DNA of 64,000 bases from a virus. Below, piece by piece: positions 12,143 to 30,969 of this stretch. Under the pieces are notes generated by a model that was given only the letters and a program-made list of their open reading frames with translations, ran no database searches and had not been told where the DNA came from. The stretch covers positions 1-64,000 of the IMG/VR virus record IMGVR_UViG_3300034062_004313; one strand, given 5' to 3'. How positions within the stretch are numbered: the first letter of the stretch is position 1; each line of letters starts with the position of its first letter. The translations under genes were made by a program, and so were the position numbers.

Positions 12143-12382
12143 TTATTCTTCTATTTCATTTATAATTTCTAATGTTTCTCCTTTTTTACCAGCATTATAA
12201 GCCATTACTAACATAGTATCAATCCATAATGCATCTGATAAATCTCTTGCTAAACAATTATCCTCTGGTTCTCCATGACCAAAAGAGACACTTTTACTAC
12301 CTTCAAATGTTTCAAGCTCTATTTCTATAGAACCTTCATACATAAAATCTCCATTCTCATACTTAGTTTTTATTATTTTCAT
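12143..12382 (-). CDS. Unknown acidic small protein
   Basis: 79 residues, acidic, beta then helix (IEIELETFEGSKSVSFGHG ... DTMLVMAYNAGKKGETLEII). Its ATG overlaps the TGA of the second exon of the spliced nucleotidase gene (ATGA at 12382-12379), which is strong support for that exon. Confidence 0.55.
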   Translation of the reverse strand: MKIIKTKYENGDFMYEGSIEIELETFEGSKSVSFGHGEPEDNCLARDLSDALWIDTMLVMAYNAGKKGETLEIINEIEE

Positions 12383-12501
12383 ATTAAATCTTTTAGTGAA
12401 TAAATTCTACGATACCCTACTTCATAACGTTGATTATGTGGAGCATCAAATAAAAATGTACATATTCCTGCATTATTAAGTTCTACAAAGTTTTCATATC
12501 T
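12379..12501 (-). CDS. dNTP diphosphohydrolase / 5'-nucleotidase fusion, exon 2
   Basis: Forty codons plus TGA that form the C-terminus of the HAD-type nucleotidase begun in exon 1 (13526-14203). The residues begin RYENFVELNNAGICTFLFDA and end RRIYSLKDLI. Joined to the exon 1 end FVDD they restore the conserved HAD motif FVDDRYENF, and the frame is kept exactly (226 codons + 41 codons with stop, a 266-residue protein). Exon 2 begins after the intron terminal G at 12502. The stop is locked to the next gene by ATGA. It has no start codon of its own and no sense apart from splicing. Confidence 0.88.
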   Translation of the reverse strand, partial: RYENFVELNNAGICTFLFDAPHNQRYEVGYRRIYSLKDLI

Positions 12502-13525
12502 CTATGTGTTACCACAAAGGTTTTTTATCCTTTGTTTCTACAGTTTTATATATAGCTGTAGTCCAGACTATCTCTTCGTCCTATTTTTAGGCGTTCCCCC
12601 GCTTTCTTGGTAGATTTTATTGTCCGTTCTGGACTCACTACTAGTCGTTAGGCATTTATGAATATTCCTATTCAATTTAGCACGGGATTGTCCTTTTCAC
12701 TAAGGAGTTTCCCCGTTTAACGGAGTTTAACGATGACAGATTGTGTAATTTATATGTCATACATTTTGGAAAAAATTCTTTTATTAATTTGGTAAAAATT
12801 TTTTTACTTCTAGCTGCAATTAGTATTTCATTTTCAGAGTTAAAACTACATTCAATATTAAATGTTAATAACCAGTTTTTTAAAACTATTAAATCTTTTA
12901 TGTCAAAACAATTAGTAGAAATTTTATAAGAATATTGAGTTTTAGAACCATCATCCATAAACCAAATAGCTAAAGCTAAAGGAGATAATTTATCTAAGTA
13001 TTCTTTTGATACTACTTTTTTATTATTAACATAAAATTTATTTACAATATCGTTTAGCACTGGATTAGTTCCAATTTTACAAAAATATTGTTGATAAAAT
13101 CTGTTACTTCTTTTATCAATTTTATTATGTATTGTAGGTTTAGAACATAATCTTTTTAATAAATTATATTTATAATCTACATATTCTGAATGTTCTAATT
13201 TATGTGTAAAAGAACCACAAGCATTTTTACCTTTTTTAGTATAACCTAACCAGCTATCACCAAGTAAACCCCCAATTAAAACATCTAACTCAGTTTGAGT
13301 TAAAGTTAATTTAGAAGGTCTGTATTTAATATAAATATCGTCAGGTAGTTCAATTTTTCTTATTGTTCTTTGAATAACTTGTGTATTTACATTAAATATT
13401 TTAGCAATATCTGAAGAAGATTTACCTTCTCTTAATAATTCTATTATTTTTTCTTTATCGTATTTCATATAGATATGTTTGTAGTACAATATACTACAAA
13501 AATATCAAATTATCAAATTTATTTT
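12502..13525 (-). mobile_element. Group I intron with in-frame-sense LAGLIDADG endonuclease
   Basis: A 1024-nt intron on the - strand. The catalytic core occupies about 12502-12760: a CAATCCCGTGC P3/P4-like segment at the end of the endonuclease ORF, AACGACTA (12649-12642) and ATAGTCTG (12571-12564) as the two P7 strands, and a series of short hairpins. The boundaries obey group I rules: the last base of exon 1 is T (13526) and the last base of the intron is G (12502). The flanks fuse into one conserved enzyme. Self-splicing is expected by two guanosine-initiated transesterifications. Exact P1/P10 pairing was not modelled. Confidence 0.9.
12677..13489 (-). CDS. LAGLIDADG homing endonuclease in intron 1
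   Basis: 270 residues (262 from the alternative ATG at 13468). An N-terminal helix-turn-helix-like segment (IIELLREGKSSSDIAKIFNV, about residues 15-34) is followed by two LAGLIDADG helices: LDVLIGGLLGDSW (about 68-80) and LALAIWFMDDGSK (about 172-184), giving a monomeric double-motif enzyme. It would cut the intron-less allele of the nucleotidase gene to spread the intron. Its last codons (...NSLVKRTIPC) run into the ribozyme core, where the stop is part of GTGCTAA, so coding and RNA structure share bases. No promoter of its own is evident. Confidence 0.9.
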   Translation of the reverse strand: MYYKHIYMKYDKEKIIELLREGKSSSDIAKIFNVNTQVIQRTIRKIELPDDIYIKYRPSKLTLTQTELDVLIGGLLGDSWLGYTKKGKNACGSFTHKLEHSEYVDYKYNLLKRLCSKPTIHNKIDKRSNRFYQQYFCKIGTNPVLNDIVNKFYVNNKKVVSKEYLDKLSPLALAIWFMDDGSKTQYSYKISTNCFDIKDLIVLKNWLLTFNIECSFNSENEILIAARSKKIFTKLIKEFFPKCMTYKLHNLSSLNSVKRGNSLVKRTIPC

Positions 13526-14203
13526 ATCATCTACAAACCATTCTATACCACTTTGTTTAGCAACTTCCACCTTTGATTCTCCAAATCCTACACAATACAC
13601 AGGCATAGTAGGAAAACCATTTTTATCTAACCACTCTTTTGTCCATTCTATAGGAATACTTCTTGAAGTTATATAACAGTGAGGTTCGAAGTTTATATCA
13701 GAAGGTTTAGTTTTAACAGGAATACTTAACCAAAACTCTTTATCATCTTTCAATAAATCAAATTTAGATTTAATATCTCTATCAAAATTCCAAGTTTCAG
13801 GAACTTCCAATCTATGATGTTTAGTCCAATGTCCTACCCAATCTGCCAATACTTCATCAATATCTAATCCTATCTTAGGTCTATTTAGATAATTATGTGG
13901 TCTATCATCTCCTTGTGGATATAATTTATAATAAGCTGTAAGAAAGTGTACATTGCAAGCTAAATGAGCAGCATGAAGTTCTCCTGTTTCTTTATCATAA
14001 TCTTCTCCATTTTCAATAGCAGCCAAATGTCTCTTTAGACTACTTATAATCTTGCTCCATGCCATTCCCTTCTCCCAATTCCTCTCGGAATATTTAATAG
14101 CACCCTTAGTTAATACACTAACCATTTGTTCATGTGCAAATGGATTTACTAAATCGTAGCGTAATTTTCCTTCATTGTAGCGTAATCCTTGTTCTTTACT
14201 CAT
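13526..14203 (-). CDS. dNTP diphosphohydrolase / 5'-nucleotidase fusion, exon 1
   Basis: 226 codons before the intron; an unspliced read adds KINLII and stops at 13505. Residues 6-95 match the dATP/dGTP diphosphohydrolase N-terminal family (DUF5664/PF18909): RYNEGKLRYDLVNPFAHEQ, KYSERNWEKGM, SSLKRHLAAIENGEDYD, ELHAAHLACN. From about residue 110 a HAD-type 5'(3')-deoxyribonucleotidase begins with GLDIDEVLADW (nucleophile/acid Asp114 and Asp116), then a conserved Thr/Ser (CYITSRS) and FVDD before the splice site. Together the domains could take dNTP to dNMP and then to nucleoside, trimming or redirecting the purine pool. The start overlaps the upstream gene by 8 nt. Confidence 0.88.
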
Positions 14204-16716: not shown

Positions 16717-17095
16717 TTCTATATTCTTTTTCACGTTCAAAAATATTTTTCCATTTATCCGCATTTTGGTACTTCTCAGTTCTATCTTCCCAATATTTTA
16801 TAAGAGCATCTAAATGACCATCATCAATTTCTTTTAATAATACCCATATGGTTTTAGGAAGAATTTCTCCATCTTTATTTCTATTTTTGCCCCATTTTAC
16901 AACGACTCTTTGTTTTTCAATGTCATCTGTATCTTCTAAAGACATATCTGTATAATTTTCTCCTATTCTACGAAGATAGGAAACTCCTCCATCAACTCCA
17001 CATTTCCCACATTTACACATATTGAAATCATGTCTATGAATTGACTGAATTATATCATTACAATTGTTACATTTTATTATATTTGCTGTTATCAT
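16703..17095 (-). CDS. DUF7695-like zinc-binding phage protein
   Basis: 130 residues. The N-terminal IIKCNNCNDIIQSIHRHDFN, followed by CKCGKCGVDGGVSYLRRIG, contains two Cys pairs, an RHDF motif and VDGG.YLRR, a pattern common to a widespread small phage protein family (DUF7695) of unknown function. The C-terminal half is a charged helix. Overlaps the GIY-YIG gene by 4 nt. Confidence 0.65.
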   Translation of the reverse strand: MITANIIKCNNCNDIIQSIHRHDFNMCKCGKCGVDGGVSYLRRIGENYTDMSLEDTDDIEKQRVVVKWGKNRNKDGEILPKTIWVLLKEIDDGHLDALIKYWEDRTEKYQNADKWKNIFEREKEYRNENT

Positions 17096-18036
17096 AAATC
17101 TTTTATGTTTATTTTAAAGAAACATTCTTGCATTCCATCAAATTTAATTTTAGGAATGTATTTATTTTCTTTATTTATTTTCTTTAATTTTTGCTCTAAT
17201 TTAAAAATATAATCAGGTTCATTTTTAATTTCTTTTAAAATTTCATAATTATAAGGAATACTATGTGCTCTTTTATCTGTTTTTAAAAAAGTTCTACCAA
17301 TTTTATAAAATTCTTCATTTTCATTCCAGCATTTGATAATATAAACTTTAAAAGAATCAAAATTTTTACTTTTCTTACCAGCATTTTCCCAATTTGTTAA
17401 ACTCCAACCAACTGGATTCTCTGAATTAATTTGTTTTAATTTTTCAAATCCACATTTAGGACATCCTCCTCCTACTAAATGTAAATTAGTAGTTTGTTTA
17501 AACTCTCCATGAATAGGACAAATTATCGAAATCTTTATTTCTTGATTTTTATAATTTAATTTACTATAATTATATGTATCACCATGAATTTCTTTTGCTT
17601 GATTTATGAAGTATTTATTTTTATCTAATGCAGTTTGTATAGATGGTATAACTTTATTTAATAAATGGTATTTTTTAATTTTACATAAACCATATTTAGT
17701 TTTTACTATTATATATTCTTTTTCTCTTTTTTCGGTTAATATATTTTCATTTGCTATTTCATAATAATTTTTATAATCTGGAAAAACTTTAAATAATTCT
17801 TTTTCAAAAAGAGATAATTTATTTAAACATGAAAAAGGACTAACTTTTCCATACTTTAATAAATTTGCTTTAAGCACTTCATACAAATTATCATTTTCAT
17901 CTTTTACAATTATAAATGATTTAGAATTTTGACTATTTACTTTATTAGAAATTTTTATTATTTCTAAATTGGATTTAGGAAAATTTTTATAAAATCTAAT
18001 TTTAAATTCTTCCAAAGTTAACTCATTGTATCTCAT
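17092..18036 (-). CDS. Free-standing GIY-YIG homing-type endonuclease
   Basis: 314 residues. The middle contains a zinc-hook DNA-binding unit typical of phage homing nucleases: HGDTYNYSKLNYKN, ICPIHGEFKQTTNLHL, GGGCPKCGFEK (about residues 145-198). The C-terminal part begins FKVYIIKCWNENEEFYKIGRT, a T5orf172/Mug113-like GIY-YIG core with the Arg in IGRT. It is not in an intron; it sits as an intergenic mobile gene downstream of the RecE-like exonuclease gene. Lower G+C and Lys/Asn-rich codon use than its neighbours are consistent with independent mobility. Preceded by the palindrome cluster at 18061-18134 and a weak promoter at 18172-18200. Confidence 0.75.
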   Translation of the reverse strand: MRYNELTLEEFKIRFYKNFPKSNLEIIKISNKVNSQNSKSFIIVKDENDNLYEVLKANLLKYGKVSPFSCLNKLSLFEKELFKVFPDYKNYYEIANENILTEKREKEYIIVKTKYGLCKIKKYHLLNKVIPSIQTALDKNKYFINQAKEIHGDTYNYSKLNYKNQEIKISIICPIHGEFKQTTNLHLVGGGCPKCGFEKLKQINSENPVGWSLTNWENAGKKSKNFDSFKVYIIKCWNENEEFYKIGRTFLKTDKRAHSIPYNYEILKEIKNEPDYIFKLEQKLKKINKENKYIPKIKFDGMQECFFKINIKDL

Positions 18037-19816: not shown

Positions 19817-20275
19817 TTATTTATTTAATAAGTGTTTATAAACTTTACAAGAAATCCATTTGTTATAAGAATCTATTAATAAAACTCTTTCCATAAATTG
19901 CCAATAAGCTTCAAAGTATGTTAATTCAGCTTTTGATTTACAGAAACAAATTATTTCTCTTTTAAAATACTCTTTTCCATAAGTTTTAATATCTTCCAAA
20001 AGTTCTTTCGAACTGCCAAAATATTGAAGCCATCCAGAATCTTTAGTACTTCTTACAACTCTTTGTCTTGTTTTTGTCTCTTTAATTACTTTTTTACTAA
20101 CTTTTTTCTTTGTAGCATGAGTAAATGCTTTTTTTCCTATATAACACTTTCCCCAAAGTTCTTTAGGAATACTCTTATGCTTTATTACAGATATTTTGTA
20201 AATATAACCATAATAACCGATAGGAACATCGTAAAGACATTTTCCACTTAAATCTAACCAACAATTACTCTCCAT
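19817..20275 (-). CDS. GIY-YIG-type nuclease (SegE-like)
   Basis: 152 residues. YGYIYKISVIKHKSIPKELW then GKCYIGKKAF (residues 22-52) is a long-loop GIY-YIG core, followed by a Lys/Arg-rich stretch, GWLQYFGSS (about 88-96) and a helix with the probable catalytic Glu (AELTYFEAYWQF). The same architecture is found in phage SegE-like proteins. Located between the polymerase and the RecE-like gene; a free-standing mobile endonuclease or a repair nuclease are both possible. Confidence 0.7.
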   Translation of the reverse strand: MESNCWLDLSGKCLYDVPIGYYGYIYKISVIKHKSIPKELWGKCYIGKKAFTHATKKKVSKKVIKETKTRQRVVRSTKDSGWLQYFGSSKELLEDIKTYGKEYFKREIICFCKSKAELTYFEAYWQFMERVLLIDSYNKWISCKVYKHLLNK

Positions 20276-28708: not shown

Positions 28709-29197
28709 TTACATTTCAAATTCTTCTAATAAAATTACTTCTTCTAATCTTTTTTCACTGGGTATATTAAACACACTATTACAACTCATACATATAGATT
28801 CATAAGAATCTCCTTGAGTTAAATTTGTACTATTACAACAAGGACATTCATTTATATCTAAACAATCTTGAATATATTCATCATCATCATTAGTAAATGT
28901 AAATTGTTCACAATAATGCCAAGAGTTATATTCTTTTTTAGAAGGAACATCAGATTGAAAATACCAATCATCTATATCATAATTTGATTTGCTCCATTTT
29001 TTATATTGAACATATTCATTCTCGGCTTTATGTTCCCATCTTTTATGAGATAGACTTTCTACTAATTCAAATGCATAATTAACAGCATTTTCAAATTCAG
29101 GAACTATTATTACTTCTTCAGCATAATGTTCATTTATATAGCCTATACTGTAATTAAAAGCACAACAATCTGCTCCTCTTTTAGATAGTTCTCCAAC
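28709..29197 (-). CDS. Zinc metallopeptidase (M20/M28/M42-like), exon 2 with C-terminal zinc ribbon
   Basis: 162 codons plus stop following intron 2. It opens VGELSKRGADCCAFNYSIGY, then INEHYAEEV, the C-terminal part of the di-zinc peptidase begun in exon 1 (30364-30969), and it supplies the last metal-binding His (His226 in the spliced protein). Joined to the exon 1 end MFTD it gives FTDVGELSKRG, the usual TDV..L..RG motif. Beyond the peptidase fold a further 80 or so residues end in a zinc-ribbon pattern (CPCCNSTN ... CMSCNSVF). An upstream TTG at 29209 could mimic a start but lies inside the intron. The spliced protein is 364 residues. Confidence 0.85.
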   Translation of the reverse strand, partial: VGELSKRGADCCAFNYSIGYINEHYAEEVIIVPEFENAVNYAFELVESLSHKRWEHKAENEYVQYKKWSKSNYDIDDWYFQSDVPSKKEYNSWHYCEQFTFTNDDDEYIQDCLDINECPCCNSTNLTQGDSYESICMSCNSVFNIPSEKRLEEVILLEEFEM

Positions 29198-30363
29198 CTT
29201 TTTGTTCAAAATGAGTCGTTAATTCATTCCCGTAAATTAATACAGCTCATAATTTCTTATGAGAACAGACTATATCATCTTCCTAATATTTAGGAAGCTT
29301 TCTATTTTGAATCACTTGATTCTACTCCGCACAACCAGATAGTCGTTGAACCTTCATCCTTTCACTAGGATGCTTGGCTGCTGATTGCCCAATCCTTGTT
29401 TCTTTTACTATACTATAGTCATTGCTGCTACAGAGAGTGTACAAGGCTCTAAGGGGTTTCCAGTCAATTAAGAAAGTACAAAATAAATATTGCTATTTAT
29501 TTGGACATTTGACAAAAATACCTTATATTGTGTATATAAAATATAAATTATGGTTAATAAATTAAATAATTCTGATATTCCTACTCTTATTGAAATGTAC
29601 AATAAAAAAGAAAAAACTGCTACAATTGCTAAGTATTTTAATGTAACAGGTGCTACAATACATAACTATTTAAAAAATAATGTCAATAACTTTGAACCAA
29701 CTTTTTCAAGAAGAAAATATTCAATAAATGATAATTACTTTGAAAAAATAGATACAGAAGATAAAGCTTATTTTTTAGGTCTTTTGTATGCAGATGGAAA
29801 TGTTTATCTTAAAACAAATAGAATAAAATTATCTTTAGTTGAAAAAGATAAAGATATACTAGAAAAATTTAAAAAATTAATAGAAAGTAATAACCCTATT
29901 ACATATTATAATAGAACTAATAAAAATGAAAATTGGCAAAATGTTTATGAATTTGCATTTACATCTAAAAAAGTAACTAATGATTTAATTAAATTAGGTT
30001 GTATTCCTAGAAAAACATATTTTCTTAAATTTCCAACAGAAGAACAAGTTCCAAGCCATCTTATTCATCATTTCATTCGTGGATATTTTGATGGAGATGG
30101 ATGTGTTCTAATTACTAAGAAATATAAAAATTTAAATATCAGATTTGATGGAACTATTGAGTTCCTTAGTTCTTTACAACAATATATCTCTACAAAATTA
30201 AATTTACCAATAAATAAACTTGGTAAAAGACATAAAGATAGAGTAGATAATATTTATAATCTCTCTTATGGAGGAAATATTCTTTGTAAAAAACTATTTA
30301 ATTTATTTTATAATAACGCTAATTTATATTTAGATAGAAAATATAAAATATTTAAGTCAATTT
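29198..30363 (-). mobile_element. Group I intron with antisense LAGLIDADG endonuclease
   Basis: An 1166-nt intron on the - strand. The ribozyme core lies in about 29198-29490 and contains AACGACTA (29347-29340, within GGTTCAACGACTATC) and ATAGTCTG (29273-29266, within GATATAGTCTG), the two P7 strands typical of group IA introns, plus GC-rich hairpins. Boundaries: exon 1 ends in T (30364), the intron ends in G (29198). The exons join in frame into a conserved metallopeptidase. The endonuclease ORF is on the opposite (+) strand and fills the 5' half of the intron. Confidence 0.88.
29509..29538 (+). promoter_or_regulatory. Possible promoter for the antisense endonuclease
   Basis: TTGACA at 29509-29514, an 18-base spacer and TATATA at 29533-29538 resemble a sigma-70 promoter of the general bacterial type rather than the Bacteroidota type; the ATG follows at 29550. 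AT-rich sequence makes chance matches likely. Confidence 0.4.
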
Positions 30364-30371
30364 ATCTGTAA
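29550..30371 (+). CDS. LAGLIDADG homing endonuclease, antisense in intron 2
   Basis: 273 residues. N-terminal helix-turn-helix-like part (ATIAKYFNVTGATIHNYLK, about 23-41), then LAGLIDADG helices KAYFLGLLYADGNV (about 73-86) and HFIRGYFDGDGCV (about 172-184), so a monomeric two-motif enzyme. It is the only ORF on the + strand within the 59-kb - strand block and cannot be made from the host transcript of the intron. Its last codons and stop (30369-30371) cross the splice site into exon 1, so endonuclease and peptidase share 8 bases on opposite strands. It would target the intron-less peptidase allele. Confidence 0.88.
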   Translation: MVNKLNNSDIPTLIEMYNKKEKTATIAKYFNVTGATIHNYLKNNVNNFEPTFSRRKYSINDNYFEKIDTEDKAYFLGLLYADGNVYLKTNRIKLSLVEKDKDILEKFKKLIESNNPITYYNRTNKNENWQNVYEFAFTSKKVTNDLIKLGCIPRKTYFLKFPTEEQVPSHLIHHFIRGYFDGDGCVLITKKYKNLNIRFDGTIEFLSSLQQYISTKLNLPINKLGKRHKDRVDNIYNLSYGGNILCKKLFNLFYNNANLYLDRKYKIFKSIYL

Positions 30372-30969
30372 ACATACAACATTGATAAGCATATCCATAT
30401 TTTTTATTAATGTGTTTTGTTGCTTTTTTAAAATTTTCTGAAACTGTGATTACACCATTTGTTGATTCACTAATATCTCTTTTATATGAATTTCTATCTC
30501 CTTGTATAAGGAAAGAACAATCTTTAAAAAATTGTATATCAGCATTTTTAGAACCTATTGCTCCCACTTCTTCTGATTTAGCAAAAAAACATTTAATATT
30601 ATCAAATTTCTGTAGAGCTAAAAGATTTAACATACAACCTAATTTATCATCTGCTCCTAATCCACATTGTATCATAGCTGTATTATCCATTCCAAATATA
30701 TAATCCTTATTCCAAATAATACTAAAATCTTTAATTTCATCTTGATTTATATCAACATGGGCTACAAAACATGGATATATTTCAGCTTCTCCCTTAGTTA
30801 CATATAAATTACCAAACTTATCCTTCTCAAATGATACACTTTTTATATTGTCAAATATCCAACTCTGAAGAAAGTTTATCATAACATCTTCTTCTTTTGT
30901 TTGAGAATGACTTCTAATTTCTAATAGTTTGTGTAATAACCTGTATTGTTCTTTATCAAATTTATACAT
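30364..30969 (-). CDS. Zinc metallopeptidase (M20/M28/M42-like), exon 1
   Basis: 202 codons before intron 2; unspliced read adds KLT and stops. Di-zinc peptidase signature: FVAHVDINQDE (His71, Asp73), GADDKLGCMLNLLAL (Asp107), FFAKSEEVGAIGS (Glu133-Glu134) and IQGDRN (Asp158); the fifth ligand is in exon 2. These enzymes trim peptides or amino-acyl groups using two zinc ions in the cytoplasm. A role in a phage is unclear: peptide recycling, removal of a host factor or inactivation of a peptide signal are all possible. Eight nt overlap with the upstream gene. Confidence 0.85.

Follow-up and report, generated by a model that had tools for sequence, protein, structure and literature searches.

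A group I intron interrupts a metallopeptidase gene in the viral DNA analysed here, and a LAGLIDADG homing endonuclease gene is carried within it on the opposite strand. The window, i.e. the whole stretch that was analysed, comprised 64,000 nucleotides (positions 1 to 64,000 of IMG/VR virus record IMGVR_UViG_3300034062_004313). With reasonable confidence, the arrangement is interpreted as a mobile group I intron whose LAGLIDADG gene is antisense; splicing would restore the peptidase, and the intron would home into intronless alleles. The features discussed below are as follows.

30364..30969, minus strand, exon 1 of the metallopeptidase: 202 codons, ending ...MFTD with T at 30364; homologues contiguous over the junction
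28709..29197, minus strand, exon 2: 162 codons plus stop, opening VGELSKRG and holding the conserved His226
29198..30363, minus strand, group I intron of 1166 nt, ending in G at 29198; limits set by the coding join, core from Rfam
29246..29521, minus strand, ribozyme core (guide region, P2-P9): RF00028, 80.4 bits, E 4.4e-21
29504..29513, minus strand, proposed internal guide: G29506 opposite U30364; Rfam puts the P1 3' strand there
29513-29509 with 30360-30356, minus strand, putative P1 extension: GUCAA with UUGAC
29481..29502, minus strand, P2 hairpin: AAAUAAAUA-GCAA-UAUUUAUUU; from sequence, folds and the Rfam alignment
29298..29476, minus strand, P3: CUUUCU (29476-29471) with AGAAAG (29303-29298); from sequence and the Rfam alignment
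29268..29344, minus strand, P7: GACUAU (29344-29339) with AUAGUC (29273-29268); from sequence and the Rfam alignment
29297-29279, minus strand, P8 hairpin, inside the P7 span; from sequence and the Rfam alignment
29550..30371, plus strand, LAGLIDADG homing endonuclease gene: 273 aa, Pfam LAGLIDADG_3 E 6.4e-12 in two stretches

Peptidase gene and proposed splice junction

The peptidase was read on the minus strand in two open frames, 30969-30352 for the first part and 29197-28709 for the remainder. The last codon of exon 1 is GAT (Asp202), the first codons of exon 2 are GTT GGA (VG), and the length of each exon is divisible by three. When 30364 was joined to 29197 (junction sequence TTTACAGAT/GTTGGAGAA), translation gave a stop-free metallopeptidase of 364 residues. 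A reading of TD-VG with U before the intron and G at its end is satisfied by T30364 and G29198 only, which are the two bases proposed in an earlier, sequence-only reading of this DNA.

Homologues from Cellulophaga phages, an uncultured 636-kb phage, a gut phage fragment and an IMG/VR contig could be aligned over TD|VGEL without a break. In the six-sequence alignment Thr201 and Asp202 were invariant, as were all candidate metal ligands (H71, D107/D108, E133/E134, D158 and H226). The last of these is encoded by exon 2, in agreement with the sequence-only reading, which had assigned a metal-ligand His to that exon. A wider search added 80 further loci (85 in all), and in 85/85 a single uninterrupted match covered residues 195-215, the junction TD|V being read straight through. 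The peptidase is therefore whole in every homologue examined and interrupted in the present phage. None of these loci had the two pieces as separate genes, the finding that had been named beforehand as speaking against an intron. A neighbouring gene of 436 aa was also matched in about half of the 85 loci.

The family name (M20/M42-like) was taken from homologues annotated as peptidase, and exon 1 alone stayed below the cut-off against Pfam M42. No near relative of the present virus record (155,874 bases), with or without the intron, was found; among the polymerase matches listed, the best E-values were those with crAss-like phages, at 27% identity.

Ribozyme core

The match to RF00028, on the minus strand, covered the full model and reached 80.4 bits (gathering score, 50) when a stretch of 361 bases was scanned. 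These data bear out the proposal of a group I intron in the peptidase gene, for which self-splicing would be expected. At the gathering score the whole window gave no Rfam match at all, which is a false negative, and RF00028 was absent from the seven matches obtained with a 2.5-kb stretch. The core passed the Rfam filters on the 361-base stretch only; the filters are presumably stricter with long input. An nhmmer profile made from 81 other intron cores, with the present core excluded, scored 67.2 bits (E 2.2e-19), and blastn with the core matched 515 phage records at E <= 1, of which 298 were at E <= 0.001. P2, P3, P7, P8 and P9 could be located in the sequence in the correct order. The core had been placed at 29198-29490 in the sequence-only reading; that range does hold a group I core, but the guide and P2 lie just upstream of it, at about 29513-29481.

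Putative P1 and guide sequence

The guide was expected directly 5' of P2. The best canonical register near P2 sets U30364 against G29506 and pairs exon GAU with GUC, giving three exon pairs, and exon 2 GUU with AAU would add a partial P10. A fold in which a short linker replaced the endonuclease segment formed both P1 and P2, with a duplex energy that was equalled by 19% of shuffles. P1 is thus weak. The endonuclease ORF is located between the 5' splice site and the core, and the gene likely lies inside the P1 loop (about 840 nt), where it would separate the exon from its guide.

Two other guide positions were considered and rejected. GACUGG (29465), prompted by a AATTGACT repeat, was dropped; AATTGACTGG is a conserved core sequence in homologous introns. 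GUCUGU at 29270, the top exon complement, belongs to the 3' strand of P7 and was therefore excluded.

Endonuclease gene

Two motifs of PF14528 (LAGLIDADG_3) were matched in a single chain, and D82 and D181/D183 are invariant among relatives. The gene is intact, and its product is predicted to be a two-motif endonuclease with cleavage activity. It lies on the plus strand, with the core and the host gene on the minus strand, and so departs from the usual sense arrangement in phages. Exon 1 holds the last 8 bases of the ORF (30364-30371), and the stop TAA and the final sense codon, apart from one base, fall within exon 1 or at the junction; the antisense ORF crossing the 5' splice site had been correctly described before. 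A helix-turn-helix match at the N-terminal start was below the family cut-off, and a sequence search of solved structures returned no relative of the enzyme.

It had also been proposed that the antisense arrangement decouples expression of the endonuclease from that of the host gene. This gained no support from promoter-like sites, since 20 were found and 21.0 were expected in shuffled sequence. Sigma-70-like sites near 29502-29531 were likewise rejected as no more than chance.

Relatives of the endonuclease

Close relatives were found as sense intron genes, e.g. in terminase genes (L007, L011), and also as free-standing genes (L010, L014, L017, L018). At two loci with a phosphoesterase-like gene (L284, L288), the endonuclease gene is flanked by the upstream exon and the core and so matches the present intron in position, yet its orientation is sense; the L288 gene is fragmented. 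At three more (L250, L306, L312) it is likewise 5' of the core and sense. Of the gene-core pairs of the relatives that lay within 700 nt, a script classed 24 as sense and 6 as antisense. Among the latter, L260 is a free-standing gene at the start of its host gene, beside a partial copy of that start. The earlier statement that such genes are usually sense thus applies to near relatives of the enzyme. In other phage introns, however, LAGLIDADG genes are repeatedly antisense, and the present case is not unique. A quick tree of 80 relatives had long branches and low support, and did not settle the number of orientation changes.

The partial copy in L260 (2427-3330) lies past the LAGLIDADG gene and is recoded (MNRADTLSKTSKDLMMKE versus MNIQTKADSLAQTSKHLMLSE). 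L257 and L281 resemble L260 in that free-standing LAGLIDADG genes lie antisense beside host genes; these two and L018 were rejected as antisense intron cases, being separate elements. In L010 (3840-4792), the end of the free-standing LAGLIDADG gene is a near copy of the C-terminus of the preceding gene (MKEVEEHFKKKGL).

Antisense LAGLIDADG genes in other phage introns

Two exact-pattern scans of viral contigs yielded 168 distinct cores and were then extended by homology. Among the genes near a core in the 168-core survey that matched the present LAGLIDADG profile, five were sense and four antisense, counts that depend on the two exact patterns and on homology and are not population frequencies. 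One locus (L143, 4266-5400) has a group I intron with a core of 74.9 bits, and the gene on its opposite strand is 33% identical to the present endonuclease over 228 positions. This intron splits a JAMM-type metalloprotease at the HSH motif (...GLIH|SHHNMATNFSGTD); the homologue in phage cr112_1 is unbroken (GLIHSHNNMATFFSGTD).

A capsid-like gene (L337) contains two introns, each with an antisense LAGLIDADG gene between its P7 strands, and the spliced protein matched that of Synechococcus phage S-EIVl in one piece at 69.6% identity. L333 has an intron and an antisense gene at the second of these sites, with the first site uninterrupted. A search with the L337 and L333 enzymes, in which L404 is L337 and L405 is L333, detected further loci with a core antisense to the gene (L406-L411, L428). 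In all five that were checked (L406, L407, L409, L410, L428), the P7 3' motif stood at the start of the gene and was followed by a capsid exon. LAGLIDADG genes antisense to a phage intron have thus been found repeatedly, with three or more host genes affected and the position of the gene varying. The present arrangement is nevertheless uncommon. In the S-EIVl record (L454, KJ410740.1 60659-61964), most of the capsid-like match is covered by an ORF annotated on the opposite strand, and this match is probably mis-annotated there.

Proposed mechanism and alternatives

In the pathway that we favour, the insertion point of the intron directly follows the codons of the invariant Thr-Asp and precedes that of the next residue. 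The precursor transcript of the minus-strand peptidase gene would fold into the ribozyme, by which 1166 nt would be removed and the peptidase restored. The endonuclease would be translated from a plus-strand transcript, its gene most likely being accommodated in the P1 loop, across which P1 would have to pair. The enzyme is predicted to cut intronless peptidase alleles at the junction or close to it; the intron and the endonuclease gene would then be copied together during repair from an intron-bearing genome. The steps beyond the sequence anatomy are modelled on the known behaviour of mobile group I introns.

An unlikely alternative, though one that deserves weight, is that a free-standing endonuclease was inserted into the 5' end of an existing intron and damaged its splicing, so that the peptidase is broken or poorly spliced and the gene a passenger. 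The weakness of P1 over about 840 nt would fit such an event, as would the free-standing state of the four close relatives listed above, and exon 1 without splicing would give a product of 205 aa that is missing His226. However, exon 2 is open over 162 codons with its conserved residues kept, as expected if it is still translated, the core scores far above the Rfam threshold, and other introns of this enzyme family have genes between the upstream side and the core. It is less probable still that the endonuclease does not home the present intron and is a separate element, with its target elsewhere and the intron serving it as a shelter. Such behaviour has a parallel in cyanophages, where the insertion site of the psbA intron is cut by a free-standing enzyme encoded outside that intron (Zeng et al. 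2009, as cited in PMC5931967), and in the antisense free-standing relatives beside host genes (L257, L260, L281). The present gene, however, is within the intron and abuts the exon 1 junction, and its sense relatives are located in introns of other genes.

That there is no intron, and that the two pieces of the peptidase are separate genes, is very improbable. Each piece has its own open frame, and a TTG lies 12 bases upstream of exon 2, but this reading is already contradicted by the uninterrupted genes at all 85 homologous loci and by the complete group I core exactly between the pieces. The mobile intron remains our preferred interpretation. A further suggestion, offered as speculation that we consider doubtful, is that the antisense LAGLIDADG gene is a stable, recurrent design: the endonuclease transcript, complementary to the P1 strands and the 5' splice site, might make endonuclease expression and host-gene splicing mutually exclusive, thereby timing homing against the function of the host gene.

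Comparison with known systems

Antisense endonuclease genes are established in introns of myxomycete nuclear rDNA, and their expression has been shown for I-DirII and I-DsqI (PMC3073962, PMC9548176). As in the present phage, these are group I introns with the endonuclease gene opposite to the ribozyme and the host gene. The myxomycete enzymes, however, are of the His-Cys type and reside in eukaryote rRNA genes, whereas here a LAGLIDADG gene lies 5' of the core in a protein-coding phage gene; the I-DsqI gene is in P9 and contains a spliceosomal intron.

The introns of T4, Twort-type phages and Bastillevirinae (PMC2988022, PMC3984707, PMC11878797) share the type of ribozyme core and the host context, and carry LAGLIDADG, HNH or GIY-YIG genes in loops. 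Their endonuclease genes are sense to the ribozyme, in contrast to the antisense gene described here. In T4, endonuclease genes are read with their surroundings, except for the free-standing segD (PMC2988022). The latter is also a phage homing endonuclease gene opposite to its neighbours, but it is a free-standing GIY-YIG gene with no intron. The S-EIVl-like capsid introns (L337, L333/L405, L406-L411, L428) resemble the present one in being phage group I introns whose LAGLIDADG gene is antisense and belongs to the same broad family. They differ in host gene, in enzyme clade and in the position of the gene, which is between the P7 strands or slightly past them instead of 5' of the core. Within the open-access literature, word look-ups in two reviews of bacterial introns and intron endonucleases (PMC3984707, PMC3943268) and in a 2025 survey of phage introns (PMC11878797) returned no passage on an antisense or opposite orientation.

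In the present intron and in the lineage of capsid introns the gene is read the opposite way, so that the host transcript cannot serve for translation of the endonuclease, whose own RNA would be complementary to the ribozyme. This opens a phage system to direct tests of transcript interference and of independent promoters. A single family of homing enzymes thus has genes in both orientations, and in several loops, among phage introns.

Other elements in the window

The sequence-only reading had placed another intron at 12380-14203 (minus strand), with a LAGLIDADG-like ORF in sense (12677-13489) that is flanked by a nucleotidase-like exon and ...VELNNAGICTFLFDAPHNQRYEVGYRRIYSLKDLI. This intron has P7-like strands. 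A scan of 1.3 kb of this region returned no RF00028 match at E <= 1, a length at which the intron in the peptidase gene could also be missed. Two minus-strand ORFs at 17092-18036 and 19817-20275 resemble GIY-YIG type nucleases, as judged by eye only.
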